Of a stretch of DNA of 64,000 bases, positions 1 through 39,028 are shown one piece after another (position 1 is the stretch's first letter; every line of letters begins with the position of its first letter). The stretch lies in NCBI RefSeq assembly GCF_024298905.1, contig NZ_CP101154.1:2728001-2792000 (forward strand), given 5' to 3'. A model generated the notes under the pieces. The model was given only the letters and a program-made list of their open reading frames with translations, was not told the DNA's origin and ran no database searches. The stretch is from Natronomonas marina. GTDB lineage: Archaea > Halobacteriota > Halobacteria > Halobacteriales > Haloarculaceae. The position numbers and the translations under genes are program-made.

Positions 1-85
1 CGACCATTCGAAATCGAATACTGACGTTAGAGGCTCCAATTCTGCCGTTAGCGGTATCTGATGCGGTAATTAGCTAAGTGGGTGG

Positions 86-140
86 GTGTGCAGGGATAGC
101 ACACGTTCGGACACCCCGCGAGGGGGGATCCGGACTGGAG
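86..140 (+). promoter_or_regulatory. Structured leader of the first SipW-type gene
   Basis: Two nested or adjacent hairpins lie just before the start codon at 146. The first pairs 86-91 with 99-104 (GTGTGC/GCACAC) around a 7-nt loop. The second pairs 105-111 with 129-135 (GTTCGGA/TCCGGAC, one G-U) and encloses CCCC-GCGA-GGGG (114-125), a GNRA-type tetraloop. A GGAG at 137-140 is a plausible ribosome-binding site. This leader does not share the TTCGAYT element of the later genes but has the same overall layout, two hairpins then a start. A function in translation control is inferred. Confidence 0.45.
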
Positions 141-145
141 AAAGC

Positions 146-1138
146 ATGACAGAAAGATACAAACTGTCGCGGCGGAAGGCGCTGGCCGGGCTCGGGACCA
201 TCGGGGTCGCGGGCGCCGGCGCTGGACTGGGTACGAGTGCCCTGTTCAGCGACGAGGAAGAGTTCGAGAACAACCAATTGACCGCCGGGACGCTCGACAT
301 GGCGGTGACGGCCGAGGTCGTTGCAGCGAACGAATACTGGAAAAACCAGGAAATCCTTGGCAACCCAGTCACGGCCGACGGCGACGTTCTGCAGAAATTC
401 CAGCTCCATGACGTCAAGCCGGGCGACTGGGCCATCATTTGCTTCACCGTGGACTCTGTGGCGGACAATCCGTTCTACCTGACGATCCACGGAGACGCGG
501 ACGAGTACAAGGAGAAGGAGGGTAAAACCACGGAACCCGAGAAGGATGCTGATAGCACCTGGGTTGACGACGGCTGGGAGTGGGTCAACGCCACGAACGC
601 CGAACTCGGCGACAAACTCCTCGTCAGCTACTGGGAGCAGTGGGACGGTACGGCGCCGTCCGAAGGTACCCAGAGTGGCGGCAAGACCGAGCTGGGGAGG
701 ATGGACAACATCACCAACACGGAGTCGAACGCGTACCCGTCTGCCAGTAGTTATTCGGAACCGGGCGAGGACGGGGTTGTTAACTCTGGGCTCGGCTACA
801 CGGACGCACGCGAGTTCTACTTCGGCAACGATCAGAATCCCAATACATCAGAACCCGACAACGACCCGCTCGGCAACGGCATCGCGAGCGGTGACGGCAT
901 CCTCGTCGGTGGGACGAGCGATCCCGTCCAGGTTGGGTCAACCGACCCGAACGAAATCAGTCGACCCCGCATGGGCGACCCGGACAATGACAGTGAGGCT
1001 GAACTCACCTTCTACCTGCTGCTCGAGCTCCCCTCGGAGGTCGGCAACGAGATCCAGGGTGACGGAGTGAAGGGTAACCTCCGGTTCAGCGCCGAGCAGG
1101 TCCGGAACAACGACGATCCGCGGAGCGGCGGCTCGTAG
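146..1138 (+). CDS. SipW-dependent-type secreted protein 1 (TasA/camelysin-like)
   Basis: A 330-aa exported protein. Residues 1-40 form a twin-arginine-like signal (SRRKALAG, then a G/A-rich core) ending in TSALFSDEEEF, the cleavage region typical of SipW-dependent substrates. The mature start FSDEEEFENNQLTAGTLD matches the camelysin/TasA pattern. A DVKPGD motif sits near residue 90, followed by DNPFY, and the C-terminus has EVGNEIQGD and AEQVRNNDDP, shared with its paralogues. I chose the ATG at 146 because the upstream codons are not conserved and a GGAG precedes it. It is first of the cluster served by the signal peptidase at 12614. A role as surface or matrix fibre subunit is inferred from the family. 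Confidence 0.8.
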   Translation: MTERYKLSRRKALAGLGTIGVAGAGAGLGTSALFSDEEEFENNQLTAGTLDMAVTAEVVAANEYWKNQEILGNPVTADGDVLQKFQLHDVKPGDWAIICFTVDSVADNPFYLTIHGDADEYKEKEGKTTEPEKDADSTWVDDGWEWVNATNAELGDKLLVSYWEQWDGTAPSEGTQSGGKTELGRMDNITNTESNAYPSASSYSEPGEDGVVNSGLGYTDAREFYFGNDQNPNTSEPDNDPLGNGIASGDGILVGGTSDPVQVGSTDPNEISRPRMGDPDNDSEAELTFYLLLELPSEVGNEIQGDGVKGNLRFSAEQVRNNDDPRSGGS

Positions 1139-1178: not shown

Positions 1179-1220
1179 CCCACCTCACGGTGGCTGCGGC
1201 GGTTCGATTCCGCCGGTGGG
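1179..1220 (+). promoter_or_regulatory. tRNA-like T-arm/closing-helix element, copy 1
   Basis: A T-arm-like hairpin GGCGG(1198-1202)-TTCGATT-CCGCC(1210-1214), extended by C1197-G1215, is stacked on a closing helix CCCAC(1179-1183)/GTGGG(1216-1220). A side segment between them can form its own hairpin CCACC-TCAC-GGTGG (1180-1193), which competes with the closing helix. A second hairpin TCTCC-CA-GGAGA (1223-1234) follows and contains the Shine-Dalgarno-like GGAG. The element lies 24 nt before the next start codon. See copies at 3065, 4877, 6784, 9741 and 11320. Confidence 0.75.
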
Positions 1221-1243
1221 CCTCTCCCAGGAGACAAGAGCCA

Positions 1244-3043
1244 ATGACACAACGCAAAATCGACATCACACGGCGAAAGATACTCGGCGCCGTCGGGGGA
1301 ATCGGGCTCGCTGGTGCCGGTGCCGGCATGGGCACGAGCGCCCTCTTCAGCGACACCGAAGAGTTCGAGGAGAACAGCCTCACAGCTGGCACGCTCGATC
1401 TGCAGGTCGACTGGGAGGAGCACTACTACAATGGTCAGGCGCCCCCCGACAACGGCGAGAACATCAGTAGTCTGCGGCTCGTCGACGGTCCGGGTGACGT
1501 CGCCGCCGGAGAGGTCGGGCTCCCCGATCCGACTGATCCGGTCGTCGCCGTCAGTGAGGACGATCTCGACGCGTTCATGGACGCCAGTACGACGGACTCC
1601 GTCGGCGGCCCCGAGAGCAACCCGCCCGCGGGCGTGATCAATCTAAGCGACGTCAAGCCCGGGGACTTCGGCGAGGTCACGTACAGCTATCACCTGTACG
1701 ACAACCCCGGGTACGTTCGGCTGGAAGCCAAGGTGACCAAGGATGCCGAGAACGGGGTTACCGAGCCCGAAGCAAGCTCGGACGGGGAGGACGGCACGCA
1801 GAGCAATCCGGGCACGGAAGGCGAACTCGGCGAGGAGGTCCAGGCGGCGCTGTGGTACGACCCAGACTGTGACAACGTGCTTGACGACGGGATGGAGACA
1901 GTCCTCAAGCGGGGCACGCTCGACGAAGTCATGGACTTCCTGGGAGCGTCCGGCGGGGAACCGCCGCTGCTCGATCCGACCGAGAGCGGTGGCCGACTCG
2001 CCGAGGGGTACGACGAAACGGACCCCACGGAGCGCAACTGCCACGGGACGATCAACGCTCCGGGCGGCCCGCCGTTCGAGTGTTCGGAGCAGTTGTACCT
2101 GACCAACACCCTCGACGACCCTGATCAGAGTCCAGGTGACGATCCGTTCGGCAGTCCGTCGGACGACACGACGAAACTTTACAGAGCCGATATCAACAAC
2201 GGCGATGCGGAACTGACCGAGTTGATCGACCTCACCGGTAGGGACTTCGACGGCGACGGGGAGGGCGATTACAACCACGTCGTTTCCATCGCAGCAAGTC
2301 CGGACGGACAAACGATATACCTCATCGACAAGTTCTCGAATCGGCTCGGCAAGTACGACATCGTGAATGACACGTTCAGCGACGGGGGCGAAATCACCGG
2401 TGGACCAACGGGTAGCATCCTTCAAGGTGCAGTCTCCCCCGCTGGCGAACTGTATTTCACTGCGTGGGGAAAAAGTAATCTGTACGTCATCGAAGATCCC
2501 TCCTCGAGTACGAGCGTCGATCAAACGATCCAGTTAACAGACCAGAACGGAGATCAGATCGAGGTGGGTGGTTCGGATATCGCCTTCCTCTCGAACGGAA
2601 CGCTCTATCTGTTCGACGGGAACGTCGACGACGGTACGCCTGATCTCTACAAACTCCCGGACCCGTCGACCGGCGACGCCGAACTGGTTTCCGAACTATC
2701 TAATGCGAATCTACCGGGCTTGGCTGTCCGGGAGGCTGGTGACGGGAACCTCATCGGGAACGATTCCACGAACAACGAACTCTACGAACTCGATCCAAGC
2801 GACGGTAGTGAGGTTGATACCTACGACATGGTCGAGGTCGATGACAATGGGAACGTTATCGACCCGGATTTCAACCAACAGTTCGGCGACATGACCGCTG
2901 GAGCCCTGTGCCCCGAGCACTGTGTTGCGCTGGCGTGGTGGGTACCGCGCGATGTCGGCAACGAGATTCAATCGGACTCGTACACGTTCGACGTCACGTT
3001 CCGCACCGAGCAGTGCCGGAACAACGATAACCCGTTTCAGTAG
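1244..3043 (+). CDS. SipW-dependent-type secreted protein 2 with propeller-like insert
   Basis: A 599-aa exported protein. The signal is TRRKILGAVGGIG with a G/A-rich core and the cleavage region TSALFSDTEEF. A DVKPGDFGE motif and DNPGYV occur near residues 135-155, and the C-terminus has DVGNEIQSDS and EQCRNNDNP. Between about residues 305 and 560 lies an inserted region with repeats of the kind KLYRADI, IAASPDGQTIYLID, GAVSPAGELYF and IAFLSNGTLYLFD, which look like NHL/SMP-30-type beta-propeller blades. The start at 1244 follows a Shine-Dalgarno-like GGAG and is where homology to the paralogues begins. It probably displays the propeller on the cell surface; the ligand is unknown. Confidence 0.8.
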   Translation: MTQRKIDITRRKILGAVGGIGLAGAGAGMGTSALFSDTEEFEENSLTAGTLDLQVDWEEHYYNGQAPPDNGENISSLRLVDGPGDVAAGEVGLPDPTDPVVAVSEDDLDAFMDASTTDSVGGPESNPPAGVINLSDVKPGDFGEVTYSYHLYDNPGYVRLEAKVTKDAENGVTEPEASSDGEDGTQSNPGTEGELGEEVQAALWYDPDCDNVLDDGMETVLKRGTLDEVMDFLGASGGEPPLLDPTESGGRLAEGYDETDPTERNCHGTINAPGGPPFECSEQLYLTNTLDDPDQSPGDDPFGSPSDDTTKLYRADINNGDAELTELIDLTGRDFDGDGEGDYNHVVSIAASPDGQTIYLIDKFSNRLGKYDIVNDTFSDGGEITGGPTGSILQGAVSPAGELYFTAWGKSNLYVIEDPSSSTSVDQTIQLTDQNGDQIEVGGSDIAFLSNGTLYLFDGNVDDGTPDLYKLPDPSTGDAELVSELSNANLPGLAVREAGDGNLIGNDSTNNELYELDPSDGSEVDTYDMVEVDDNGNVIDPDFNQQFGDMTAGALCPEHCVALAWWVPRDVGNEIQSDSYTFDVTFRTEQCRNNDNPFQ

Positions 3044-3064
3044 TCCCGTGACCGTGATCTTCAC

Positions 3065-3105
3065 CCCACACTGGTGTGCGACGGCGGTTCGATTCCGCCG
3101 GTGGG
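3065..3105 (+). promoter_or_regulatory. tRNA-like T-arm/closing-helix element, copy 2
   Basis: CCCAC (3065-3069) pairs with GTGGG (3101-3105). The T-arm-like hairpin is GGCGG (3083-3087), loop TTCGATT, CCGCC (3095-3099), extended by C3082-G3100. The side segment contains CACA-CTGG-TGTG (3067-3078). It is followed by a perfect hairpin TTCCCC-AGGA-GGGGAA (3108-3123), whose loop and 3' strand hold the Shine-Dalgarno AGGAGG. The element ends 23 nt before the ATG at 3128. Confidence 0.78.
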
Positions 3106-3127
3106 CCTTCCCCAGGAGGGGAACAAC

Positions 3128-4852
3128 ATGACAGAACGCAGAATCGATCTCACGCGGCGGAAAGTCCTCGGCGCCGTCGGCGGCATCGGAGTCGCCGGTG
3201 CCGGCGCCGGCATGGGCACGAGCGCCCTGTTCAGCGACACGGAGTCGTTCGAGGAGAACACGATCACGGCAGGCGAACTCGACCTCAAGGTCGACTGGGA
3301 GGAACACTACTCGTACCCGCAGATATACGGGTTCGACGATCCGACGAGCGGACTGACCGTCACCCGGACCGAACCGACCAACACGACGGACTACGTCGGG
3401 CTGCCGGACCCCGAAAGTCCGGTCGTGTGGGTCCACGAGGACGACCTCGGTGCCTACATGGCGAACACGGCCATCGAGGCGTTCCCGGACCCCGACAACG
3501 ACGGGGCACAGGAGGTCGATACCAGCGGCTTCACCTACCTGCCCTGTGAGGACGGTGCCGATCTCCCCGATCATCTGACGCCGTCCCCGTCCGGGAGCGG
3601 CGCGACGCGCACGGACAACGCGGACACGATGACCGACGGGAACAGGGAGCCGCTCATCAACCTGACGGACGTCAAGCCCGGTGACTTCGGCGAGTTCACG
3701 CTGAGCTTCCACCTCTGTGACAACCCGGGATACCTGTGGCTCGAGGCGGCGAACGTCGACCAGTCGGGCGGCGCGAACCCGGAGCCGGAACAGGACGCCG
3801 AGGGGGACGCGAACAACGACCCCAACCTCGCGGAGAACATCCAGACGGTGTGGTGGTACGACGACGGCGACAACGTCCTCGAGGAGGAGATCGGGAAGGT
3901 CGACGTAATGTTGGCGGTCGACACGTCGGCGTCGCTGACGAGCGGTAACGTGAGCGACCTGGAGTCGGACGCGAACCAGCTCGCCACCGACCTCGTCAAC
4001 GCGGGCGACGCACAGGTCGGCGGGCTGACGTTCGGCGACAGCTCCATCGGGAACTTCTCGGGGCTGAGTGCCAGCCCGGGCACGCTGTTCTCCGGGCTGT
4101 CCCCGAACGGGAACACGCCGACGCCGGCGGCGCTCGAGATCGCTGCGGCGGAACTGGACGCGAACGCCCGTCCGGGCGCCGAGACGTTCATCGTGCTGTT
4201 CACCGACGGCGGGCCGAACTACCCCAACCAGACCTACTCCGCGGGCGGATACACGGTCGGGAGCGGCTACACGGGCGGTATTTCGGGCAACTCGACGGTC
4301 GACGACAGCGAACTCGAAGAGACGGCGACTATCGCCGACGGCATCCGCAGCGACCATCGCATCCTCACGGTCGGTATCAACGACGACCGGAAGCCGTCGG
4401 GCCGCGAGAGCGACCCCGCCGGCAGCATCTTCGGCACGGGATCCAACGGCTACCTCTCGAGCTACCTCCAGAACGAGATCGCCGGCGGCATGGCCGATTA
4501 CTTCTCCGCGGAGGACGCGGGTGCCGTCTCGAACATCCTCAACTCGATCCTCGAGACGATCGCGACGTCCGAGGAGGTGTTCCGCCGCGGGACCCTGGAG
4601 AGCGACCTGAACGCGCTCTCGACGCCGGTGCCGCTCGACGGCGACCTGACGACGGCCTTCGACGAGTTCAGCGACCCCGATACGAGCCCGGACCGGGAGT
4701 GCTTCCAGCCGGGCGTCACCCACTACATCGGCTTCGGCTGGTGGGTGCCCGACAGCGTCGGCAACGAGATCCAGGGCGACTCCGTGAGCTTCGACCTCGG
4801 GTTCTACACCCAGCAGTGTCGCAACAACGACGGCGCCTACAGCGGGCCGTAG
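3128..4852 (+). CDS. SipW-dependent-type secreted protein 3 with von Willebrand A domain
   Basis: A 574-aa exported protein with the signal TRRKVLGAVGGIG and the cleavage region SALFSDTESFEEN. DVKPGDFGEFTLSFHLCDNPGYLWLEA precedes an inserted von Willebrand A domain at about residues 262-460. Its metal site is recognisable: DTSAS at 265-269 (DxSxS), a Thr in the GNTPTPAA segment, and Asp360 in FTDGG. The C-terminus returns to the family pattern SVGNEIQGDS...QQCRNND. The vWA insertion suggests a metal-dependent adhesion function; this is inferred. The start at 3128 has an AGGAGG at 3114-3119 and matches the paralogues. Confidence 0.85.
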   Translation: MTERRIDLTRRKVLGAVGGIGVAGAGAGMGTSALFSDTESFEENTITAGELDLKVDWEEHYSYPQIYGFDDPTSGLTVTRTEPTNTTDYVGLPDPESPVVWVHEDDLGAYMANTAIEAFPDPDNDGAQEVDTSGFTYLPCEDGADLPDHLTPSPSGSGATRTDNADTMTDGNREPLINLTDVKPGDFGEFTLSFHLCDNPGYLWLEAANVDQSGGANPEPEQDAEGDANNDPNLAENIQTVWWYDDGDNVLEEEIGKVDVMLAVDTSASLTSGNVSDLESDANQLATDLVNAGDAQVGGLTFGDSSIGNFSGLSASPGTLFSGLSPNGNTPTPAALEIAAAELDANARPGAETFIVLFTDGGPNYPNQTYSAGGYTVGSGYTGGISGNSTVDDSELEETATIADGIRSDHRILTVGINDDRKPSGRESDPAGSIFGTGSNGYLSSYLQNEIAGGMADYFSAEDAGAVSNILNSILETIATSEEVFRRGTLESDLNALSTPVPLDGDLTTAFDEFSDPDTSPDRECFQPGVTHYIGFGWWVPDSVGNEIQGDSVSFDLGFYTQQCRNNDGAYSGP

Positions 4853-4876
4853 TCGGCGCGCCGTTCCCCTCCCCTA

Positions 4877-4915
4877 CCCACGTTCGGCGTACGGCGGTTC
4901 GACTCCGCCGGTGGG
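4877..4915 (+). promoter_or_regulatory. tRNA-like T-arm/closing-helix element, copy 3
   Basis: CCCAC (4877-4881) pairs with GTGGG (4911-4915). The T-arm-like hairpin is GGCGG (4893-4897), loop TTCGACT, CCGCC (4905-4909), extended by C4892-G4910. The side hairpin is ACG-TTCGG-CGT (4880-4890). The following hairpin is CCAC-GAAA-GTGG (4920-4931), a GNRA tetraloop. The element ends 26 nt before the ATG at 4941. Confidence 0.75.
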
Positions 4916-4940
4916 CCTTCCACGAAAGTGGGGACCGACA

Positions 4941-6761
4941 ATGACACGGGATACAATCGATCTGTCGCGGCGGAAGATACTCGGCGGTGTCGGGGCCATC
5001 GGGGTCGCGGGCGCCGGCGCTGGACTGGGCACGAGCGCCCTGTTCAGTGATACCGAAGAGTTCGAGAACAACTCGGTTCAGGCGGGGACGCTGGACCTCG
5101 TGGTCGACTACGTGACGACGGTCACCCAGGATGGCGTCAGTCCGGGCAGTACGACAAACGACGGGACCATCCAAGGCGGCGAATCGGGCGAGTACCAGAT
5201 CGCCGACGCCAAACCGGGCGACAGCGGGTTCCTGGCGTTCTGTCCGAAGATCGTCGACAACCCCGGCTGGCTGTTCGTGGGGAGCGCCGAGGGTGTCACC
5301 GACTACGAGAACGGCCAGACCGAACCCGAGGGAGATGTCGACCCGAGCGGCAGCGGGAGTCTCAACAACAACACGAACGACGGCTCGGATGCGGGCGAAC
5401 TCTCCGAGGCCATCCAGGTCGACGTCGAGTACTGCGAGCCCAACACGTCCGACCCGAGCGGTCTCGAGGACTACGACACGATCCGCGAGTTCAACAACCC
5501 GGACGACTACACGTTGGCGGACCTGTTCAAGGAACTCGAGAGTGGGATCCTGCTGGACGGCGACGCAGACCCCGCGAACGGAACGACGGAGTATCCCTCG
5601 TCACCGAATCAGAGCACGCAGAGCGGCCCGTGTCTCTGCATCAGTTGGAACATCCCGACCGAGGTCGGCAACGAGATCCAGTCCGACGCCGTCGAGTTCG
5701 ACATCACGTTCGCGGCCCGGCAGTGGCGGAACAACCCCAACCCCGAGAACCCGATCGCCACCACGACGGTCTGGCCGGGTGACGATCTCGCGAATGTAGT
5801 CAGTAATGCTGGCCAGGACGAGATAATCAGCGTCTTCGGCGGAAGCTTCGGGGACGGAAGTGACTACGACGGAAACTTCAATATTGACGCGTCGGGCGTG
5901 ACGCTGGCGAGAGCGAGCGCCGAACGGCCCGTAATTAACGGTCAGAATGGATTCGCAGTGGGGGTCGACGCCGCCGACGTGACGGTCGATGGGTTCGAAA
6001 TCCGAAATCCCGGGACGCAGGGTACGGCTAATCCGGGATCACCTGGCGGAATCGGAGGCGTCGACATCAAATCCGGAAACACGAACGTGTGCATACAGAA
6101 CAATATCATCACGAATATTGGGACCGGGGACGACGACGCGAACCCGATTGGGGTCCTCGCGAGCGACGGTACCAGCGGAATCCGGGTTTACAACAACGAA
6201 ATCAGCAATCTCGAGGGAACCGACGAGGATCAGGGGCAGGTTCAGGGCGTCCTGATCAACGAGTCCGGTGCCCAGATCACGGATGCGGAAGTCAGCAACA
6301 ACACGATCACTGGCCTGCTTGACACGCGCTCGACGAACGCAATCCGGTTCAACGGCGACGTCACCGGAGAGATCAGCGACAACGACATCAGCGACCTGAA
6401 CACCGAGGGAACGATTCCCGGATCGGGCGGAGCGCCAGGGGGCTTCACGCAGGTCATCGCGCTGCAGCAGGGTGGCGGGAGTACTACTGGTCCCTCGAAC
6501 GTCACGATTCGCGGTAACGCCATCTCGAACATCGAGACGACGACTACAGATAACTTCGCCCCGCCGTTCCACGTTATCCTAGGGGGAAGCACGGATGGTA
6601 CGACGGTTTCCATCGACTCGAACGACTTCTCCGGCGATAGTACAGACGACGAGGTCTACGTTGGCGATGATACAGGCGATCTGGATCTGAATGCCGTGCT
6701 GGCTAATAATAGCTACACCCCGGCAGGGGCGATTTCGGGAGGTGCAATCGTCCGACAATAG
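4941..6761 (+). CDS. SipW-dependent-type secreted protein 4 with C-terminal beta-helix
   Basis: A 606-aa exported protein. The signal is SRRKILGGVGAIG, with cleavage region SALFSDTEEFENN. DAKPGDSGF and DNPGWLFV are near residues 90-110. The family C-terminal signature EVGNEIQSDAVEF...RQWRNNPNP ends near residue 270, and a long extension (275-606) follows. It is rich in short repeats such as GVTLARASAERPVI, VTVDGFEIRN, NVCIQNNIITNI, GIRVYNNEISN, EVSNNTITGL and VTIRGNAISNI, the signature of a right-handed parallel beta-helix (pectate-lyase/NosD-like). The domain may bind or act on polysaccharide; no catalytic residues could be assigned by eye. Confidence 0.83.
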   Translation: MTRDTIDLSRRKILGGVGAIGVAGAGAGLGTSALFSDTEEFENNSVQAGTLDLVVDYVTTVTQDGVSPGSTTNDGTIQGGESGEYQIADAKPGDSGFLAFCPKIVDNPGWLFVGSAEGVTDYENGQTEPEGDVDPSGSGSLNNNTNDGSDAGELSEAIQVDVEYCEPNTSDPSGLEDYDTIREFNNPDDYTLADLFKELESGILLDGDADPANGTTEYPSSPNQSTQSGPCLCISWNIPTEVGNEIQSDAVEFDITFAARQWRNNPNPENPIATTTVWPGDDLANVVSNAGQDEIISVFGGSFGDGSDYDGNFNIDASGVTLARASAERPVINGQNGFAVGVDAADVTVDGFEIRNPGTQGTANPGSPGGIGGVDIKSGNTNVCIQNNIITNIGTGDDDANPIGVLASDGTSGIRVYNNEISNLEGTDEDQGQVQGVLINESGAQITDAEVSNNTITGLLDTRSTNAIRFNGDVTGEISDNDISDLNTEGTIPGSGGAPGGFTQVIALQQGGGSTTGPSNVTIRGNAISNIETTTTDNFAPPFHVILGGSTDGTTVSIDSNDFSGDSTDDEVYVGDDTGDLDLNAVLANNSYTPAGAISGGAIVRQ

Positions 6762-6783
6762 CAAGGAAACCACCGATAACCAA

Positions 6784-6822
6784 CCCACGTTCGGCGTACG
6801 GCGGTTCGACTCCGCCGGTGGG
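6784..6822 (+). promoter_or_regulatory. tRNA-like T-arm/closing-helix element, copy 4
   Basis: CCCAC (6784-6788) pairs with GTGGG (6818-6822). The T-arm-like hairpin is GGCGG (6800-6804), loop TTCGACT, CCGCC (6812-6816), extended by C6799-G6817. The core is identical to copy 3, but the downstream hairpin differs: TTCC (6825-6828) pairs with GGAA (6836-6839). The element ends 23 nt before the ATG at 6845. Confidence 0.75.
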
Positions 6823-6844
6823 CCTTCCACGGGACGGAAAAACC

Positions 6845-7849
6845 ATGACGCGAAAAAGACTGGAACTGACGCGGCGCAAGATCCTCGGTGCAGCCGGTGC
6901 CGTCGGCATCGCCGGTGCGGGCGTCGGTGCGGGGACGAGCGCGCTGTTCTCCGACGAGGAGGCGTTCACCGACAATGCGATCAGAGCGGGGACGACGAAC
7001 CTCGTCGTGGAGGCCGCGGTCGTCGAGGTGTCGGAGGGGCTCGCGGCCAACGGCACCGTCGAGATCGTCGACGCGACCGACGACGGGGACGGCGACGACG
7101 ACCAGCTCACCGTCGACGGGACGCCGGCGCCGGCGCTGGGACTGACCGTCGGGGACGCCAAACCGGGCGACTCGTTCGTCCTCCGGGTCACCGTCGACGT
7201 CGAGGACAATCCGATGTACGTGGCGGCGGTGTTACCCGGGGGCGACGCCGTCGACGACAGCGAGAACCGCCCGAATCCGGAACCGGAAGCCGCCACGCAG
7301 GCCGCCGGCACGAACCCCGACGTGCAGAACGACGACCCCAACAGCGGCGCCGGGAACGGGTCCGACCCGATCGGGGACGGGTCCGGCGACGACGCGGGTG
7401 ACCTCGACAACCGGCTCTTGGTCACGCTGGGATACGACAGCGACAGGACCAGTCGACACGACGACGGCCTCGAGGGGAGTATCGTGCCCGAATCCGGCTT
7501 CGACGGGACCCCATCGGCAACCGCCACCGCGTTCCTGGCGGCGCTCGACGGCGGGTACGTCTACCGCGGGCAGGAGGGCGCCAGCGGGTCGCCGCCGGGC
7601 GGACACGCCGACAGCGGGCCACCGACGCGCATCGGCGACCCGACGGGGAGCAACGTCGACCGGGGGAAGGTCACCCACTTCATCGAGTTCGAGTTGCCCC
7701 TCGGCGTCGGCAACGAGGTCATGGGCGACTCCGTGAGCTTCGACCTGGCCTTCCAGGCCGAACAGGTCCGCAACAACGACGACCCGTTCGGGGCGGCCGG
7801 GGGCCAGTCGGTCGTCATTCCCGACCAGACCGCGAACGCACCACCCTGA
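6845..7849 (+). CDS. SipW-dependent-type secreted protein 5
   Basis: A 334-aa exported protein with the signal TRRKILGAAGAVG and cleavage region SALFSDEEAFTDN. The motifs DAKPGDSF and EDNPMYV, and the C-terminal GVGNEVMGDSVSFDLAFQAEQVRNNDDP, mark it as a paralogue of the other cluster proteins. No extra display domain is obvious. A Gly/Asp/Asn-rich stretch at about 145-185 may be a linker. The stop is only 7 nt before the next gene, so the FG-GAP protein downstream is probably translationally coupled to it. Confidence 0.8.
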   Translation: MTRKRLELTRRKILGAAGAVGIAGAGVGAGTSALFSDEEAFTDNAIRAGTTNLVVEAAVVEVSEGLAANGTVEIVDATDDGDGDDDQLTVDGTPAPALGLTVGDAKPGDSFVLRVTVDVEDNPMYVAAVLPGGDAVDDSENRPNPEPEAATQAAGTNPDVQNDDPNSGAGNGSDPIGDGSGDDAGDLDNRLLVTLGYDSDRTSRHDDGLEGSIVPESGFDGTPSATATAFLAALDGGYVYRGQEGASGSPPGGHADSGPPTRIGDPTGSNVDRGKVTHFIEFELPLGVGNEVMGDSVSFDLAFQAEQVRNNDDPFGAAGGQSVVIPDQTANAPP

Positions 7850-7856
7850 CAGAACG

Positions 7857-9689
7857 ATGCCAGAATCAGAACCAGACTTCGAGCTGTACTCGACCGTGAC
7901 GATCGAGCGGGCCGAATACACGGACGACGACCTGCGTCGGCTGCCCGCTCCGGCGGTATCGACCGATCCCTCGGAGTCCCTCGTTCCGGTGCCGCCCCTG
8001 GTGGACCCGGAGCACCTCCACGGGTCCGATACCCCCGCGTTCGTCGTGGCGATTCACGCCGTCGATCCGCCCGTCGGCTCCGGCAGCCCCGACGACTTCT
8101 CGTCGGTGATCGGGTTCAGGATCCGGGAGAAGGGAACCTACACCGAGGAGTTCGAGGTCCCGATCTTCCCCTTTACGCTCCTTAACGGGAACGTGAAACG
8201 CCCGAACGACCGGGCACCCCCAGGAGGGACGTACCCGCCGAACCCGGACGGGGATACCGAGGTCGTGGCGCGGCTCTGGGGCGTGACGGCCGAACCGATC
8301 CCGGACTCCGGGGAGTTCACCAGGGCGTTCGGCCCGCTCTCCGACGACCCCGGGGACAGCGCACGCATCACGAGCCTGGACCGGAACCCGTCGTTGCTCC
8401 CCATCAACGAGGGAACGACACCCGGGGGCGGGAGTTTCGAACGGTCCGTGCTGACCCCGGAAACGTTCGGCGACGGGGATTCGCCCCGGTTCGGTATGTC
8501 GGTCGACATCGGCGATCCCTCTGAGGGGGAACTACTCGGGACGCCCAGGACGGGGGTCGAGATCCCGTCCGGGCCCGGACCCGACGAGTTCAGGCTGCGG
8601 AAATCAGATGAGCAGCGGCGCGAGTCGACGGTCGTCGCCGGGGCACCGGCCGAGGATCACTCCGCGGACACGGGATCGGCCTACGTCCTGAACGGCATCT
8701 TCGAGGAGCTCGAGCCGGGCAACGCGGGGCTCGTCGGCGCGGACGAACCCCTCGACGGGGCCGAGTTCGGCACTGCGGTCGCCCACGATCAGGACCGCGG
8801 CTCCGGTGCGGAGCTGCTGGCCGTCGGTGCGCCCGGGGACGACGGCGGCGACGGCGCGGTGTACCTCTTCGACCGGTCGGGGGAATCGTCTGCCTGGAGT
8901 CTCCGAACGAAGTTCGAGGGCTCGGGCGGCGGATACGGCTCGACGGTCGATGTCGCGGTCGACTCGGACCTCGGCGCGTTCGTTCTCGTCGGCGCGCCCG
9001 AGGCCGACGGTAGCGGTTCGGCCGAGTTGAAGACGCTGGAGGGGGGCGACAGCGAGTTCCCCGTTCCGATGATCGAGGCGCCGAGCGAACTCGAACCCGG
9101 TGCCGGGTTCGGAGCCGCGGTTTCGCTCTCGTTTCCGTTCGCTCTCGTCGGCGCGCCGGGCGCGAACCAAACGAGGGGAGCAGGATACTTCTTCTTCGAC
9201 GACGGGAGCGAGGCCATCAGCATGGAGCTGGCCAACGAGGCCGGCGTAGCACTGAGCGAGGGGGATCGTTTCGGGACCGCGGTCGACGCCGTCGGACCGT
9301 TCCCGCCGATAGTCGGTGCGCCGGGCAGCGAGGCGGAAGCGGGGACCGTGTACCGATTCGTCCCCGTCGAGGGGCCGTCGTTCTCCGCACGCCAGTTATC
9401 GGCCGAGAGCGACGCTCCGAACGACGCGGACGGGCTGGGGGCGTCGCTCTCGGGCTCCGAAGAGGGACCGTTCCTCGCCGGCGCCCCCGGCGGACGGTAC
9501 GCGGCCCTCTTCGAGCCGACAGGCCCGGGAGAAATCGGATCGCCGTACGGGCTCGCCGGGCGGTTCGAGCTTCCCGAGACCCCCTCCTTCGGCGCGTCCG
9601 TGGCGATCGCCCCGGACGGGACCAGGGGCGTCGTCGGGGCACCGGCGGCGAACGGGGGTGATGGAGCGGCGTTCCTCGTCGAAAACTGA
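7857..9689 (+). CDS. FG-GAP repeat (integrin-type beta-propeller) protein without signal peptide
   Basis: A 610-aa protein. The N-terminal 250 residues are unassigned. The C-terminal part carries seven repeats around a (V/A)GAP core: VVAGAPAED, LLAVGAPGDD, FVLVGAPEAD, FALVGAPGAN, PPIVGAPGSE, FLAGAPGGR and GVVGAPAAN, with FG(T/A)AV-type strands between them. This is the pattern of FG-GAP/integrin-alpha propeller blades, and seven fits a closed propeller. No Tat, Sec or lipobox signal is visible at the N-terminus and no alternative upstream start fits. It starts 7 nt after the preceding SipW-type gene. It might be exported in complex with its neighbour through Tat, or its start may lie elsewhere; both are speculative. 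Confidence 0.75.
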   Translation: MPESEPDFELYSTVTIERAEYTDDDLRRLPAPAVSTDPSESLVPVPPLVDPEHLHGSDTPAFVVAIHAVDPPVGSGSPDDFSSVIGFRIREKGTYTEEFEVPIFPFTLLNGNVKRPNDRAPPGGTYPPNPDGDTEVVARLWGVTAEPIPDSGEFTRAFGPLSDDPGDSARITSLDRNPSLLPINEGTTPGGGSFERSVLTPETFGDGDSPRFGMSVDIGDPSEGELLGTPRTGVEIPSGPGPDEFRLRKSDEQRRESTVVAGAPAEDHSADTGSAYVLNGIFEELEPGNAGLVGADEPLDGAEFGTAVAHDQDRGSGAELLAVGAPGDDGGDGAVYLFDRSGESSAWSLRTKFEGSGGGYGSTVDVAVDSDLGAFVLVGAPEADGSGSAELKTLEGGDSEFPVPMIEAPSELEPGAGFGAAVSLSFPFALVGAPGANQTRGAGYFFFDDGSEAISMELANEAGVALSEGDRFGTAVDAVGPFPPIVGAPGSEAEAGTVYRFVPVEGPSFSARQLSAESDAPNDADGLGASLSGSEEGPFLAGAPGGRYAALFEPTGPGEIGSPYGLAGRFELPETPSFGASVAIAPDGTRGVVGAPAANGGDGAAFLVEN

Positions 9690-9740
9690 GACGAACGACC
9701 GACCCGGGCCGACGAACCCGGGGCGACGGGCGGCGCGGTT

Positions 9741-9781
9741 CCCACGCTGGTGCGTCACGGCGGTTCGATTCCGCCGGTGGG
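9741..9781 (+). promoter_or_regulatory. tRNA-like T-arm/closing-helix element, copy 5
   Basis: CCCAC (9741-9745) pairs with GTGGG (9777-9781). The T-arm-like hairpin is GGCGG (9759-9763), loop TTCGATT, CCGCC (9771-9775), extended by C9758-G9776. The side hairpin is ACGC-TGGT-GCGT (9744-9755). A strong hairpin CCCCC-GCTT-GGGGG (9785-9798) follows. The element ends 26 nt before the ATG at 9807. Confidence 0.77.
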
Positions 9782-9806
9782 CCTCCCCCGCTTGGGGGTT
9801 CAGCAC

Positions 9807-11273
9807 ATGAGGGAACACATGGACATCTCGCGACGGAGGCTGCTGAAGGCGACCGGAGCGATAGGGCTCTCCGGCGTCGGTGCCGGGGTGGGGACCAGGG
9901 CCCTGTTGAGCGACACGGAGTCGTTCGAGCGGAACACGCTCGCCGCCGGCGACCTCGATCTCAAGATCGACTGGCAACAGACCTACAGCGGGCCGAACCC
10001 GGACACCGGCGAGGTCGAACGCCACGGCGTCAACGCCTATCCCGACCACGACGGCGACGGCCTCCAGTCGTTCAACGAAGTGCAGTACGGCGGCCCGGGT
10101 GCCACGCAGGACGCCTCGGACATCCCGGCCGTCTGCTGTGACTGTGGCATAGACGAGTACCTGCTCTTCCAGGAGACGGGGTCCGGTCGGCTCTCGACGT
10201 GTATCGAGCCGATCCGCGGCGACGATCCCATCGAGGAGTTCTACGACTACTCGGACGGCAGCCCGAACACCGGCTTCGAGCAGACCGACCGCAGCGCGGT
10301 TTTCCTCTACGAGGAAACGGGTGCCGCCGCCGACAGCGACGAGGGCGACCTGAGTCTCGTGTTCGTCCACGACGTCGCCGACAGTCCCGAGGAGGGCAGC
10401 GAGGTCGTCGTCTTCGACTTCCCCGGAGGACTGCCCGACGACGACGGCGAGTCGTGGCTCGTCGTCGAGGAGGGCAACGACACGCTCACGACCGCCAGCG
10501 CGCGGTTCCAGTGGGGCGGTCCCTACGGCGACGGCGGGGCGTACGGCCACCTGGCCGACGACTTCGGGCCGATCACCCTCGTCCCCGACTTCTCGGCGTC
10601 GGACGTCACCGACTGGGTCGCCATCTCGAGCGACCGGACGGACCCGATCGAACTCGACGTGACGGAACCGCTGACGCTGAGCGCGCGGTGTAGCGCAAGG
10701 AGCGGCAAGGACCTCGAGGTGCCGGACGTGTTCCAAAGCGACGGCTACCCGGACCAGGAGCACCTGATAGAACTGGCCGACGTCAAACCCGGAGACACCG
10801 GCGAGATCACGTTCAGCATCCACAACTGCGGCAACCCCGGATACCTCTGGCTGGACTTCCTGAACCTGACCGGCGGCGAAAACGGGATGACCGAACCGGA
10901 AGCGACCGTCGACGACGACGGGGGAAGCGAACTCGCGGAGAACGTCTACGTTCGACTCTGGTACGACGAGGACTGCAACAACGCCTTCGACGGCGGCGAG
11001 CGGACCATCTATCCGGATTCCGGGTACGCGAGCGTGCGGACGCTGTTCGACAGCGCCGGCCAGTCGGTCGCCGGCGGGCGCCGACTCGAACTGGACGGCG
11101 ACCCCTACGGGAGCAGTGGCCGGGACCCGGTTCCCGGCAACGGCACCACCCTGTGTATCGGACTGGAGTGGACGATTCCGACCGACGTCGGCAACGAAAT
11201 ACAGACCGACTCGCTGGGATTCGACCTCCGCGGCTACACCGAACAGAGTCGGAACAACACGCCCGCACCATGA
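9807..11273 (+). CDS. SipW-dependent-type secreted protein 6
   Basis: A 488-aa exported protein. The signal is SRRRLLKATGAIG, with cleavage region TRALLSDTESFERN. Residues about 60-300 form an insert with several Cys residues (VCCDCGIDEY) and no recognised domain. The family core follows: DVKPGDTGEITFSIHNCGNPGYLWLDF, DEDCNNAFDGGE and DVGNEIQTDSLGFDLRGYTEQSRNN. A calcium-binding-like DHDGDGLQSFNEVQ stretch occurs near residue 75. The start could be 9807 or the in-frame ATG at 9819; 9807 keeps the usual element-to-start spacing. Confidence 0.8.
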   Translation: MREHMDISRRRLLKATGAIGLSGVGAGVGTRALLSDTESFERNTLAAGDLDLKIDWQQTYSGPNPDTGEVERHGVNAYPDHDGDGLQSFNEVQYGGPGATQDASDIPAVCCDCGIDEYLLFQETGSGRLSTCIEPIRGDDPIEEFYDYSDGSPNTGFEQTDRSAVFLYEETGAAADSDEGDLSLVFVHDVADSPEEGSEVVVFDFPGGLPDDDGESWLVVEEGNDTLTTASARFQWGGPYGDGGAYGHLADDFGPITLVPDFSASDVTDWVAISSDRTDPIELDVTEPLTLSARCSARSGKDLEVPDVFQSDGYPDQEHLIELADVKPGDTGEITFSIHNCGNPGYLWLDFLNLTGGENGMTEPEATVDDDGGSELAENVYVRLWYDEDCNNAFDGGERTIYPDSGYASVRTLFDSAGQSVAGGRRLELDGDPYGSSGRDPVPGNGTTLCIGLEWTIPTDVGNEIQTDSLGFDLRGYTEQSRNNTPAP

Positions 11274-11319
11274 GGGACGAATGCGACGAATCAACGAGAC
11301 ATCGATGGACGCCGACCGA

Positions 11320-11360
11320 CCTCCACGCTGGCGCTTCGGCGGTTCGACTCCGCCGGGAGG
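11320..11360 (+). promoter_or_regulatory. tRNA-like element, orphan copy 6 with compensatory changes
   Basis: The T-arm-like hairpin GGCGG (11338-11342), loop TTCGACT, CCGCC (11350-11354) is conserved. The closing helix is CCTCC (11320-11324) with GGAGG (11356-11360) instead of CCCAC/GTGGG. Two base pairs have changed on both strands (C-G to T-A, and A-T to C-G), which supports a real RNA helix. No start codon follows at the usual 23-26 nt, and the next gene is 300 bp away. It may be a remnant of a lost gene or a 3' processing site of the upstream mRNA. Confidence 0.7.
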
Positions 11361-11573
11361 AGTCGTGAACCCGCGGTAACGAACGGACGAACGAACCAAG
11401 AGAAAACAGATAAATGATACATTCGCCCGGCATCGGTCGTTGCTCGCCCTCGAACAGCGGCCGGACCACACGCGGGCAGGCATCTACCGGGTCCGAACAG
11501 CGGGACGTCGAGCGGTGGTGTATTCCCCGCCCGGCGTTAATTTCGTCGGTGAATGACAGCGGGATGATAGGTA

Positions 11574-11660: not shown

Positions 11661-12617
11661 ATGCCGGATTATAGTATCAGTCGCCGTCAGTTACTCGCCG
11701 GACTCGCCGTAACCGGCGGGACCGGTGCGGTGGCCGGCAGCGGCAGCGCGGCGCTGTTCTCGGACACCGAGACCTTCGAGGACAACGACGTCTCGGCGTC
11801 GAAGAGCGTCGCCGGCGTCGTCGACATAGAGGTGACCGTCGGGTCGCCGAACCCCGGGATGGCGGAGCTGCGGGTCAGTCTGCCCGACGACGTGAACAAC
11901 AACCCGTCTCACGTCTGGGTGCGGACAAAGACGTGTCCGGACCCCGTCGTGGCCGCCACGACGTACGTCGAGGTGTACCGGGTCTGCGGGAACGACTGGA
12001 CCCTGATAGACCAGGGAACCGCCTTCGACGTGTTCACGAGCGAGACGTTCCGCGAGGGATTCCTCCTCTCGTGTGGGACCGACGAAAACGACTGTCTCCG
12101 CCCGGGCGAGACGCGGACGCTCGTCATCCAGACGCCGTCTGCCCCCAGTTCGGACCTCGATCTCGAACTGGAGTTCTACGCCGAACAGTGTCGCTACGGC
12201 AGCGCACCGGGAGCGTCGCCGTTCGCCGAATCGGAGACGCTGGGGCCCGACGAGTGCGGGAGTCCCCCCTCCGGCAAGGACATCAGCTGGATCGGCTTCT
12301 GTGCGACGGCCGACACGGGGCTGACCGACGACGACCTGGCGTTTACCGTCGACGGTGACACCCTCGTTTTGACCGACGCGCCGGAGTCGCTCGGCGCGGT
12401 CGTGCTGAAGTACGGCACCGAAATCCGAGTCTTCGGCGACCCCGGAGCGGCGGGGGTGTTCACCACGGCGGAGGGCGGAACCGTGTATCAACAGCAGGGT
12501 AGCGGGTTCGGAAACACCGACCGGTCGAACCCCGACCCGTGTCCCGGGGTGTGTGGCCTGAAATACGAGGTGGACGACGACGTCGGCTCACCGGAGGCGA
12601 AGGGGTGTTCATCATGA
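11661..12617 (+). CDS. SipW-dependent-type secreted protein 7
   Basis: A 318-aa exported protein with the signal SRRQLLAGLAVTGG and cleavage region SAALFSDTETFEDND. It is the most divergent member: it lacks the KPGD and VGNEIQ motifs but keeps LELEFYAEQCRYG, the equivalent of the family's C-terminal strand. A Cys-rich C-terminal half (about 195-318) follows. The ATG at 11661 was preferred over the GTG at 11655. Its stop overlaps the signal peptidase start (ATGA), showing translational coupling to the enzyme likely to process it. Confidence 0.78.
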   Translation: MPDYSISRRQLLAGLAVTGGTGAVAGSGSAALFSDTETFEDNDVSASKSVAGVVDIEVTVGSPNPGMAELRVSLPDDVNNNPSHVWVRTKTCPDPVVAATTYVEVYRVCGNDWTLIDQGTAFDVFTSETFREGFLLSCGTDENDCLRPGETRTLVIQTPSAPSSDLDLELEFYAEQCRYGSAPGASPFAESETLGPDECGSPPSGKDISWIGFCATADTGLTDDDLAFTVDGDTLVLTDAPESLGAVVLKYGTEIRVFGDPGAAGVFTTAEGGTVYQQQGSGFGNTDRSNPDPCPGVCGLKYEVDDDVGSPEAKGCSS

Positions 12618-13945
12618 GTACGGACAATACCGAATACGGAGAGGAAAGCGACGGGGGAGGCTCGTCGCTGTCCAAGCGGGATCTGCTTTCGATCACGGCG
12701 ACGATCGCACTGATCGTCCTCGTACTCCCGTTCGTCGTCTATGCGGTTCCACAGACCGTCGGGGCCGACCAGAGCTACGTCGTCCTCTCGGGCAGCATGG
12801 AGCCGGCGTTCAGCCCGGGCGACGTCATCGTCGTCGAGTCGGTGCCCGCCGAGTCGATATCGGCGGGCGACGTGATAACGTTCGCCCGCGACGGCGAGAG
12901 CCGGCCGACGACCCACCGCGTCATCGAGGTGGTCGAAACCGAGGCGGGGCCGGCGTTCCGGACGGCCGGGGACGCCAACGAGGACCCCGATCCGGCGCTC
13001 GTCCAGCCCGATCAGGTCAGAGGGCGAGTGCCGACCGTCGACGGCCACCTGTTCGTCCTCCCGTACATCGGGTACGTCATCGGGTTCGCCGGGACCCGAC
13101 TCGGGTTCGTCGCGCTCGTCGTCACCCCGCTGATACTCCTGGTGCTCTCGGAAGCGTACGACCTGATTCGGTCGACCCGCGGGGACGAGGAGCCGGAACC
13201 CGCGGGGAGTGCGGCGGGAACGACCCACAACGACGAGCGGGGAGACGCCCCCTCGAAGGCGACCGGTCCCGACGACGGGGTCGAGGGCGAGGTGCCCGCG
13301 GCGACCCCCGAGGCGGACGAGGACGAGGCGGGGATCGTGCTGACGCCGAAGGACCTCCGGTTCTCGGTGATCCTCCTCGTCGTGTTCACCGGCTACGCGG
13401 TCTGGGTGGCCTACACGACGCGGGAGGTGTGGTCGTTCACGGCCGCCTCGACGGTGGCCGCGGCGCTCGTCATGATCGGCGGTCTGTACCTCTTCGGCGG
13501 GTCGGACTCGGTCGAGGAGCCGGCAGAGACGGTCACCGAGCCGTCCCACGGCGGGACGGTCGCTGGACCGCCCGAAACGAGGACCGAACCGCTCGTCGAC
13601 GGCGGCATCGAGGCCGTCGACGGGCCGGGAATACCGAGGACCGCGGTGGAACCGGACCGGCCGACGACAGCAGAACCGGAACGCCCCGGGGGCGAACCCT
13701 CGAACCCGAACTTCGAGGACCTCGAACCCGCCGTCGTCGAGGTGGAGCAAGCAGCCGACGCCGGAGAGCAGGCAGCCGACGCCAGGGAGCAGGCAGCCGA
13801 GGAAACGACGTGGCCGCTGGCGAGGAACCCGCTGTTGTATCCGCTGCACGCGATCCTCTATGCGATCGGGTACGTGATCGTCGAACCGGTCAGGTTCGTC
13901 TACCGGCGACTGCCGTTCGCCGGCGGAGGTGGTCGGGATGACTGA
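12614..13945 (+). CDS. SipW/Sec11-type signal peptidase I with membrane extension
   Basis: A 443-aa membrane protease. TM1 lies at about 22-45. The catalytic Ser is Ser61 in SGSMEPAF; His101 in TTHRVIEV replaces the Lys of bacterial enzymes, and Asp120/Asp124 in GDANEDPDP complete the ER/SipW-type site. A TM follows near 155-180, then an acidic linker, two further TMs (about 255-300), an Ala/Glu-rich linker and a last hydrophobic segment (YPLHAILYAIGYVIVEPV) at the C-terminus. It is far longer than the usual 180-220 aa. It overlaps both neighbours by a few bases, so it belongs to the SipW-substrate operon and is expected to cleave these signal peptides after membrane insertion. Confidence 0.88.
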   Translation: MSTDNTEYGEESDGGGSSLSKRDLLSITATIALIVLVLPFVVYAVPQTVGADQSYVVLSGSMEPAFSPGDVIVVESVPAESISAGDVITFARDGESRPTTHRVIEVVETEAGPAFRTAGDANEDPDPALVQPDQVRGRVPTVDGHLFVLPYIGYVIGFAGTRLGFVALVVTPLILLVLSEAYDLIRSTRGDEEPEPAGSAAGTTHNDERGDAPSKATGPDDGVEGEVPAATPEADEDEAGIVLTPKDLRFSVILLVVFTGYAVWVAYTTREVWSFTAASTVAAALVMIGGLYLFGGSDSVEEPAETVTEPSHGGTVAGPPETRTEPLVDGGIEAVDGPGIPRTAVEPDRPTTAEPERPGGEPSNPNFEDLEPAVVEVEQAADAGEQAADAREQAAEETTWPLARNPLLYPLHAILYAIGYVIVEPVRFVYRRLPFAGGGGRDD

Positions 13946-22886: not shown

Positions 22887-23600
22887 ATGGACGTCCTGGG
22901 TGACCTCGTCGACCGGGACCGACGGTCCGGGACACCGGCACTTCGGGTGCCGGCCGTCGGTCGGGAGTACGACTACCGGCGGTTCTGCACGAGCGCCTGG
23001 AAGGTCGGGAACTTCCTCCGACATCTCGGCGTCAGAAGCGGTGCCAACGTCGCGGTCGCCGACGACCCGACTCCGGAACCCGTGTTGACCTTCTACGGCG
23101 CCGCACTGCTGGGCGGCATCGTCCGCTTCGACCCGCCATCGGCGCCGAGCGACGACGCGCGAGCAGTCGTCGTCCCCGCGTCGGAACTCGACGCCGACGA
23201 GGTCGGTCCCGGGACGAAGGCGGTCGTCTACGGCGACCGCCACGCCGACCCCGACGTGGCGTACTTCGAACGCGACGTCTGGAGCGAGAACCCGACGGCA
23301 CCGCCGGACCTCGTGATGCCCGACGACCTGCTCCTCCGGAGCGCGGAGCGCACCTACACCCACGGCGAGGTGATCGCCGCCGCCGAAACCGTCGTCGAAG
23401 AGCACGCCATCGACGCCGACGACGAGGTTGCCGTCGCGGCCGGAACCTCCTTTTCCGATCCCGGAACCGTCGCAGCGGGGCTGGTCGCACCGATACTCGC
23501 CGGTGCGGCCATCGCTATCGGCCCCGGAGCAGCCGGCGACTTGGTCGTCGGCGGCTCGGACGCCGACGTCGACGCCGCGACAGTGCTGTCGGAAACCTAA
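22887..23600 (+). CDS. Short acyl-CoA synthetase/AMP-ligase-like protein
   Basis: A 237-aa protein resembling the N-terminal portion of AMP-forming acyl-CoA ligases: PAVGREYDYRRFCTSAWKVGNFLRHLGVRSGANVAV and FYGAALLGGIVRFDPP follow the substrate-domain pattern, and RTYTHGEVIAAA echoes YTY/THxEL. The P-loop-like phosphate motif (TSGTTGxPK) and the C-terminal lid domain are absent, so ligase activity is doubtful. It is far shorter than the normal 500-650 aa. It may be a stand-alone binding or regulatory protein; function is unknown. Confidence 0.7.
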   Translation: MDVLGDLVDRDRRSGTPALRVPAVGREYDYRRFCTSAWKVGNFLRHLGVRSGANVAVADDPTPEPVLTFYGAALLGGIVRFDPPSAPSDDARAVVVPASELDADEVGPGTKAVVYGDRHADPDVAYFERDVWSENPTAPPDLVMPDDLLLRSAERTYTHGEVIAAAETVVEEHAIDADDEVAVAAGTSFSDPGTVAAGLVAPILAGAAIAIGPGAAGDLVVGGSDADVDAATVLSET

Positions 23601-38979: not shown

Positions 38980-39028
38980 GTCGTGTAAACAGCCTCGGGC
39001 GCGGTGGGCCGAGGCTTTTGTAGTTCCC

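Follow-up and report, generated by a model that had tools for sequence, protein, structure and literature searches.

Tandem t-element-like RNA copies between SipW-type genes of Natronomonas marina, a candidate signal for intercistronic RNA processing

The window analyzed here is the whole 64,000-nucleotide (nt) stretch of Natronomonas marina DNA at positions 2,728,001 to 2,792,000 of contig NZ_CP101154.1 (assembly GCF_024298905.1, forward strand). It opens with a cluster of genes for proteins with SipW-type signal peptides (TIGR04088), and among these genes lie six copies of a short RNA element of the kind known as the t-element, a tRNA-like structure found before 5S rRNA in haloarchaea (Table 1). 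Genes 1 to 5 alternate with copies 1 to 4; the FG-GAP gene comes straight after gene 5, and copy 5, gene 7, and copy 6 follow in that order. Every copy is 3' of a gene. Copy 6 closes the putative operon and is not directly followed by a gene, the next SipW-type gene starting about 300 nt further on. The signal peptidase I encoded beyond that gene is likely the processing peptidase of the cluster.

Table 1. Genes, t-element-like RNA copies, and leader hairpins of the SipW-type cluster (window coordinates; R1 and R2 are covariance models described in the text; P1 is the closing helix)
Feature	Coordinates	Strand	Remarks
Gene 1, SipW-type signal peptide (TIGR04088)	146..1138	+	First gene; promoter-like region upstream, no element before
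t-element-like RNA copy 1	1179..1222	+	P1 CCCAC/GTGGG; T-arm GGCGG-TTCGATT-CCGCC; R1 61.6 bits, R2 33.9 bits; predicted tRNase Z cut after 1222
Leader hairpin 1	1223..1234	+	TCTC-CCAG-GAGA; at predicted new 5' end
Gene 2, SipW-type signal peptide (TIGR04088)	1244..3043	+	
t-element-like RNA copy 2	3065..3107	+	R2 42.9 bits, E 5e-08 in window; predicted cut after 3107
Leader hairpin 2	3108..3123	+	TTCCCC-AGGA-GGGGAA
Gene 3, SipW-type signal peptide (TIGR04088)	3128..4852	+	VWA-like domain
t-element-like RNA copy 3	4877..4917	+	R2 40.8 bits; predicted cut after 4917
Leader hairpin 3	4918..4933	+	TTCCAC-GAAA-GTGGGG
Gene 4, SipW-type signal peptide (TIGR04088)	4941..6761	+	
t-element-like RNA copy 4	6784..6824	+	Core identical to copy 3; R2 40.8 bits; predicted cut after 6824
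Leader hairpin 4	6825..6839	+	TTCC-ACGGGAC-GGAA
Gene 5, SipW-type signal peptide (TIGR04088)	6845..7849	+	
Gene 6, FG-GAP repeat protein	7857..9689	+	7 nt past gene 5, no element between
t-element-like RNA copy 5	9741..9783	+	R2 40.8 bits; predicted cut after 9783
Leader hairpin 5	9785..9798	+	CCCCC-GCTT-GGGGG
Gene 7, SipW-type signal peptide (TIGR04088)	9807..11273	+	Last gene before copy 6
t-element-like RNA copy 6	11320..11362	+	3' of last gene of the operon; P1 CCTCC/GGAGG; R2 25.4 bits, E 0.05 genome-wide
Next SipW-type gene (TIGR04088)	11661..12617	+	About 300 nt past copy 6; no element directly before
Archaeal signal peptidase I, SipW-like	12614..13945	+	

Each copy consists of the 5' strand of P1 (CCCAC; CCTCC in copy 6), a spacer of 10-13 nt, the T-arm CGGCGG-TTCGAYT-CCGCCG, and the 3' strand of P1 (GTGGG; GGAGG in copy 6). 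Six such copies starting at 1179, 3065, 4877, 6784, 9741, and 11320 had been proposed in an earlier, sequence-only reading of the window; all are present there with the T-arm hairpin and its TTCGAYT loop stacked on the closing helix, and the double change on both P1 strands of copy 6 is real. The 19-nt T-arm core occurs six times exactly in the window, where seven T-arm-like sites with up to 3 mismatches were found against 0.56 expected, and in the whole 3.99-Mb genome the exact 17-nt T-arm has seven occurrences, namely the six copies and one tRNA-Val. A tRNA gene, pseudo-tRNA, or tRNA remnant was considered and rejected, as ARAGORN called a tRNA at none of the six copies and that tRNA-Val is the sole other exact T-arm of the genome; the spacer stands in place of the D, anticodon, and variable arms of a cloverleaf. 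Rfam 15 gave no family at or above its curated threshold at the copies. Folding energy did not single out individual copies (z about -0.5 to -1.1), so the case for the elements rests on covariation and homology. Elsewhere in the window, an ARAGORN tRNA-Arg call at 3354-3446 (minus strand), antisense within gene 3, is probably a false positive, and Rfam sot2652, a sense overlapping transcript of IS200/IS605-type elements, was matched at 38965-39150 (minus strand).

Homology was searched with covariance models in both directions. Only the six copies went into model R1, with Ns added to the alignment to hold the helix in register since MAFFT had misplaced P1 of copies 3 and 4, and ten 5S-leader elements, all of other genomes, went into model R2. 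In its own genome, R1 recovered the six copies and a weaker site at 23506-23549 (expectation value, E, 0.05), just ahead of the 5S rRNA start at 23551. With R2, the seven best matches in the whole genome (4 Mb) were the N. marina 5S element and all six copies (E 3e-6 to 0.05), and the next match had E = 2; copy 6, the weakest, still scored higher than all non-elements. The likeness to the 5S-leader element of Haloferax suggested in the sequence-only reading therefore holds in both directions, and the R2 result strongly supports, at the level of structure, placing the six copies in one class with the haloarchaeal t-element. Among 146 relatives, R1 had matches in 50 genomes, and across 393 sampled genomes of the phylum the matches were confined to the order. 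Of 128 distinct genome-wide matches, 34 adjoin 5S rRNA (1 nt before it, the N. marina element included), 64 lie directly before a SipW-type gene or a Taf-type (Tat-fimbria) gene, 14 lie only 3' of one, and 16 have neither neighbor by motif, so that 78 of the 94 non-5S matches adjoin genes for SipW-type or Taf-type secreted proteins. A pattern scan of named genomes was positive for Halorubrum, Halobellus, Halobacterium, Natronomonas, Haloglomus, Haloarchaeobius, Halapricum, Halorhabdus, Natronorubrum, and others, with no Haloferax among the matches. Two tandem 5S rRNA genes occur in some haloarchaea (L027, L037, L039, and L098), each with its own t-element match in L027 and L098.

Covariation was assessed in 106 distinct sequences of relatives, where 98.7% of pair cells hold standard pairs and 9 of 11 pairs show two-sided changes, counts that lean towards the structure because the sequences were aligned by R1 itself. 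The covariation score was 0.38 compared with at most 0.09 in slid-structure controls; this control and the T-stem, which has fixed spacing and is independent of gap placement, argue against an alignment artefact. Two-sided changes also exceed shuffles at several pairs of P1 and of the T-stem when the SipW class is taken by itself, and the paired state is kept with compensatory changes across several haloarchaeal families. The helix, argued earlier from the double change of copy 6, is thus upheld by clear covariation in the larger alignment. The loop reads TTCGAYT in 123 of 128 SipW-class elements. A side hairpin of 10-13 nt, also part of the sequence-only reading, did not survive, as the stem score of the spacer was no better than that of shuffled sequence in either the SipW or the 5S class; conserved there instead is a GG at a fixed offset after P1, at offset 2-3 in 71% of the SipW class (25% in shuffles) and at offset 3-4 in 100% of the 5S class (19% in shuffles). 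This GG may act as the counterpart of the D-loop GG in its contact with the T-loop. The elements thus combine an acceptor-like helix on a T-arm, a 7-nt TTCRANY loop, compensatory change, and a fixed GG, and lack an anticodon arm.

For placement, TIGR04088 genes of 16 genomes were grouped into same-strand arrays with gaps of up to 3.5 kb. An element stands before 43 of 69 internal genes and before none of 36 first genes (Fisher p = 2e-11), where a riboswitch or leader regulator of the 5' untranslated region would be expected; a broader model, R3, added one further internal case and still none before any first gene. A long open reading frame (ORF) ends no more than 250 nt upstream in 124 of 129 elements, and 14 elements of the unbiased set are 3' of a SipW-type or Taf-type gene without directly preceding one. 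Neighboring genes are on the same strand with short gaps, and no AT-rich, promoter-like step was found in the 120 nt upstream of the elements. Most elements keep a tight distance of 18-26 nt to the start codon; for copies 1 to 5, the distance from the end of GTGGG to ATG is 22-25 nt, close to the 23-26 nt claimed at first. The distance from the upstream stop codon varies widely (0-240 nt), whereas the distance on the 3' side is nearly fixed. The description of the elements as standing before SipW-type genes is thus right for copies 1 to 5 and incomplete, as every copy also follows a gene and copies 1 to 5 carry a second hairpin. The elements before Taf-type genes were also considered as 5' leaders, a candidate rejected on account of the stop codons just upstream and, once the ORF filter was dropped, the long upstream ORFs counted above. 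Given 43 of 69 internal and 0 of 36 first genes, the elements would punctuate operons and are probably not ordinary 5' leaders. First genes of SipW arrays have a promoter-like region conserved across genera (window 1-146, TAATTAGCTAAGTGGGTGGG; relatives, ATTAGCTTAGTGGRTGGGG; compared in the window and in loci L046, L047, L048, L049, L055, and L059), and CGTT/TTCGA-type motifs recur upstream, which hints at a shared transcription factor.

The second, covarying hairpin is found behind copies 1 to 5 and behind almost all SipW-type and Taf-type copies, at the counterpart of the 5S rRNA start. It takes the form TCCCC-loop-GGGG or variants such as TCTCCG/CGGAGA, TCGTCC/GGACGA, CGCCCGA/TCGGGTG, and many others. 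The test excluded copies that came from the pattern scan, since the scan pattern contained part of the hairpin. In 56 of 57 cases of the unbiased set, the hairpin begins 0-2 nt past the homologous tRNase Z cut site, and it is strong in 77% of cases, with 17% of shuffles reaching the same score. The 3' border of the element is marked in both classes, by 5S rRNA 1 nt after it or by the leader hairpin.

The host genes fall mainly into two families. The second family (proteins of the form MKRRNVLAALG...GSGAFTS) has matches to the Tat-fimbria proteins TafE, TafA, and TafC below curated cut-offs, and to DUF1102 in one case; the elements therefore mark operons of secreted, surface-filament-like proteins. 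Taf-like operons with elements were seen in L056, L057, L058, L060, L062, L063, and L064, where the gene behind the element opens MKRRNVLAALG...GSGAFTSVSA. In L086 (2177-2218) and L109 (2681-2722), a t-element-like match (beginning GCCACCCTTGCGGGTGCGGCGGTTCGACTCC) follows a gene ending in EEVQEMTPH[DG]VTGD with no SipW gene nearby, a possible third kind of host. In L186 (1501-1543), a strong match lies directly past the stop codon of a gene for a Tat-signal-like protein and beside a subtilisin-like ORF, with a secreted surface-type protein (beginning MNGKRFTAVIAALALVLSAFAAPGVFA) encoded about 100 nt further on. Copies 3 and 4 (window 4877-4930 and 6784-6838) do not differ in their core, and two copies in L058 likewise share one; genes and elements appear to duplicate jointly as cassettes.

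The interpretation given the most weight, with a probability of about 0.75, is that the copies are intercistronic t-elements at which a polycistronic RNA is cut by tRNase Z, and probably by RNase P, into monocistronic mRNAs with 5'-terminal hairpins. Transcription from the promoter before gene 1 would place the SipW-type genes in one polycistronic RNA; the tRNase Z cut would fall immediately 3' of each element, following ..GTGGGCC, and a cut by RNase P is probable immediately 5' of it. Excision of the element would leave mRNAs with a defined 3' end, each new 5' end would open with a hairpin of 4-7 bp about 10 nt ahead of the start codon, and the terminal copy 6 would fix the 3' end of the operon. 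Co-transcription, cleavage by both enzymes, and effects on stability and dosage are the predicted parts of this scheme, and the likely benefit would be stability and dosage set independently for the individual subunits of a surface filament or coat. The wider proposal, held with somewhat less confidence yet still on balance favored, is that haloarchaea have a natural system dedicated to punctuating protein-coding operons, in which tRNase Z and RNase P cut out tRNA-like modules without an anticodon from between tandem SipW/TasA-type and Tat-fimbria genes, each cut exposing a 5' hairpin that would protect or tune the mRNA.

Several observations weigh against this interpretation. Conservation of the P1 3' strand GTGGG exceeds what pairing requires, many of the changes seen in P1 of the SipW class are wobbles on one side, and no element was detected before 26 of the 69 internal genes. 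Only three of the six copies have the t-element fold as their predicted minimum; in the others it lies within 1-3 kcal/mol of the minimum. The main point against it is the 2012 abstract of Hoelzle et al. (Biochimie 94:940), which reportedly describes 47 other tRNA-like structures of H. volcanii, of which those tested are said to have been uncut by tRNase Z in vitro. The 2012 set may not have covered the SipW class of elements, because no Haloferax is among the named matches.

The sequence-only reading had left the choice between processing and translation control, and absence of elements before all 36 first genes favors the former, with cleavage as a prediction. If the element were a cis-regulatory 5' leader, acting in translation control or as a protein-binding RNA, the fold and the G-rich hairpin would mask or expose the SipW or Taf start site without cleavage. 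The tight spacing to the start codon fits, as does the G-rich 3' arm of the hairpin, which could resemble a Shine-Dalgarno site, but first genes should then carry the element too, terminal copies such as copy 6 have no gene directly behind them to regulate, and the same structure class marks the 5' ends of 5S rRNA; this explanation is considered unlikely. Slightly less probable again is an element that serves only the upstream gene, blocking 3' exonucleases or recruiting RNase P to form the 3' end, with the distance to the next gene incidental. A gene does end shortly upstream of nearly all elements and copy 6 lies past the last gene, but it is the 5'-side distance that is broad and the 3'-side distance that is nearly fixed, and the downstream hairpin begins at the homologous tRNase Z site.

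Recent duplication of some neighbors, as seen from the identical core of copies 3 and 4, would suit two further explanations. The copies could be DNA-level repeats, either recombination or gene-cassette sites or remnants of tRNA 3'-end att sites that aid tandem duplication of SipW genes, which is very unlikely in view of two-sided compensatory changes in two successive structures, an orientation fixed relative to both flanking genes, and the match to 5S-leader elements; moreover, the exact T-arm occurs in only one tRNA of the genome, and the copies retain the 5' acceptor-like strand. Compensatory changes, fixed orientation, and the 5S-element match point to selection on RNA. They could also be relics, t-elements copied once from rRNA operons and spread by gene duplication with no present function, which is the least probable, given the extent of pairing and the compensatory changes across several haloarchaeal families.

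The closest known system is the 5S t-element (Hoelzle et al. 2008, 2012, cited in PMC4326828 and PMC7714728), and cleavage by tRNase Z at the 3' side is shown for the 5S element only (cited in PMC4326828 and PMC3296008). The two classes share a length of about 41-45 nt, P1 on a T-arm, the TTCGAYT loop, a GG a few nucleotides past P1, lack of an anticodon arm, and a product RNA that opens with a helix at the cut site, and the model of each class retrieves the other. They differ in P1 (CCGAC/GTCGG in 5S elements, CCCAC/GTGGG in SipW copies), in the position of the SipW copies between protein genes with a small leader hairpin in place of 5S helix I, and in that cleavage is proven for the 5S element and predicted for the intercistronic copies. 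In H. volcanii, RNase P and tRNase Z remove t-elements from both sides of an unrelated CRISPR RNA (crRNA) in vivo (PMC4326828, PMC4946936, PMC7521656), RNase P cleavage at the 5' side being reported for these crRNA-flanking elements (PMC4326828), and t-elements are therefore portable modules. RNase P has also been knocked down by CRISPRi (PMC4946936). RNA between the t-elements of these synthetic cassettes is freed whatever its sequence, and primer itele1 (ACCGATATTGGTATGGCAACC) opens with the same layout of P1 and GG; the cassettes are man-made, whereas the SipW elements would be a natural case that frees mRNAs. Animal mitochondrial tRNA punctuation (PMC8437803) likewise has RNAs recognized by RNase P and RNase Z between cistrons, excision of which gives monocistronic mRNAs, but these are real, functional tRNAs, whereas the archaeal operon would have a dedicated element without an anticodon. 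Bacterial operons are a more distant parallel in which a tRNA enzyme acts between the genes of a polycistronic mRNA, RNase P of Escherichia coli cutting in intercistronic regions; the sites there are irregular, with no repeated, covarying tRNA-like module.

Which enzymes cut archaeal mRNAs, and at which signals, is a largely open question, and an earlier test in Haloferax reportedly concluded that tRNA-like elements do not serve generally as processing signals. Maps of transcript processing sites exist for H. salinarum and H. volcanii, and their text mentions no tRNase Z, RNase P, or tRNA-like signals (PMC8303175). The element described here is of a known type and its proposed natural role between protein genes is new. 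If the proposal is true, archaeal tRNase Z and RNase P would have specific mRNA substrates, with predicted cut positions exact to the nucleotide, and gene-by-gene dosing of surface-filament subunit operons would be accounted for. The system would be a prokaryotic counterpart of mitochondrial tRNA punctuation, and multi-gene expression in haloarchaea could draw on the elements as natural parts.

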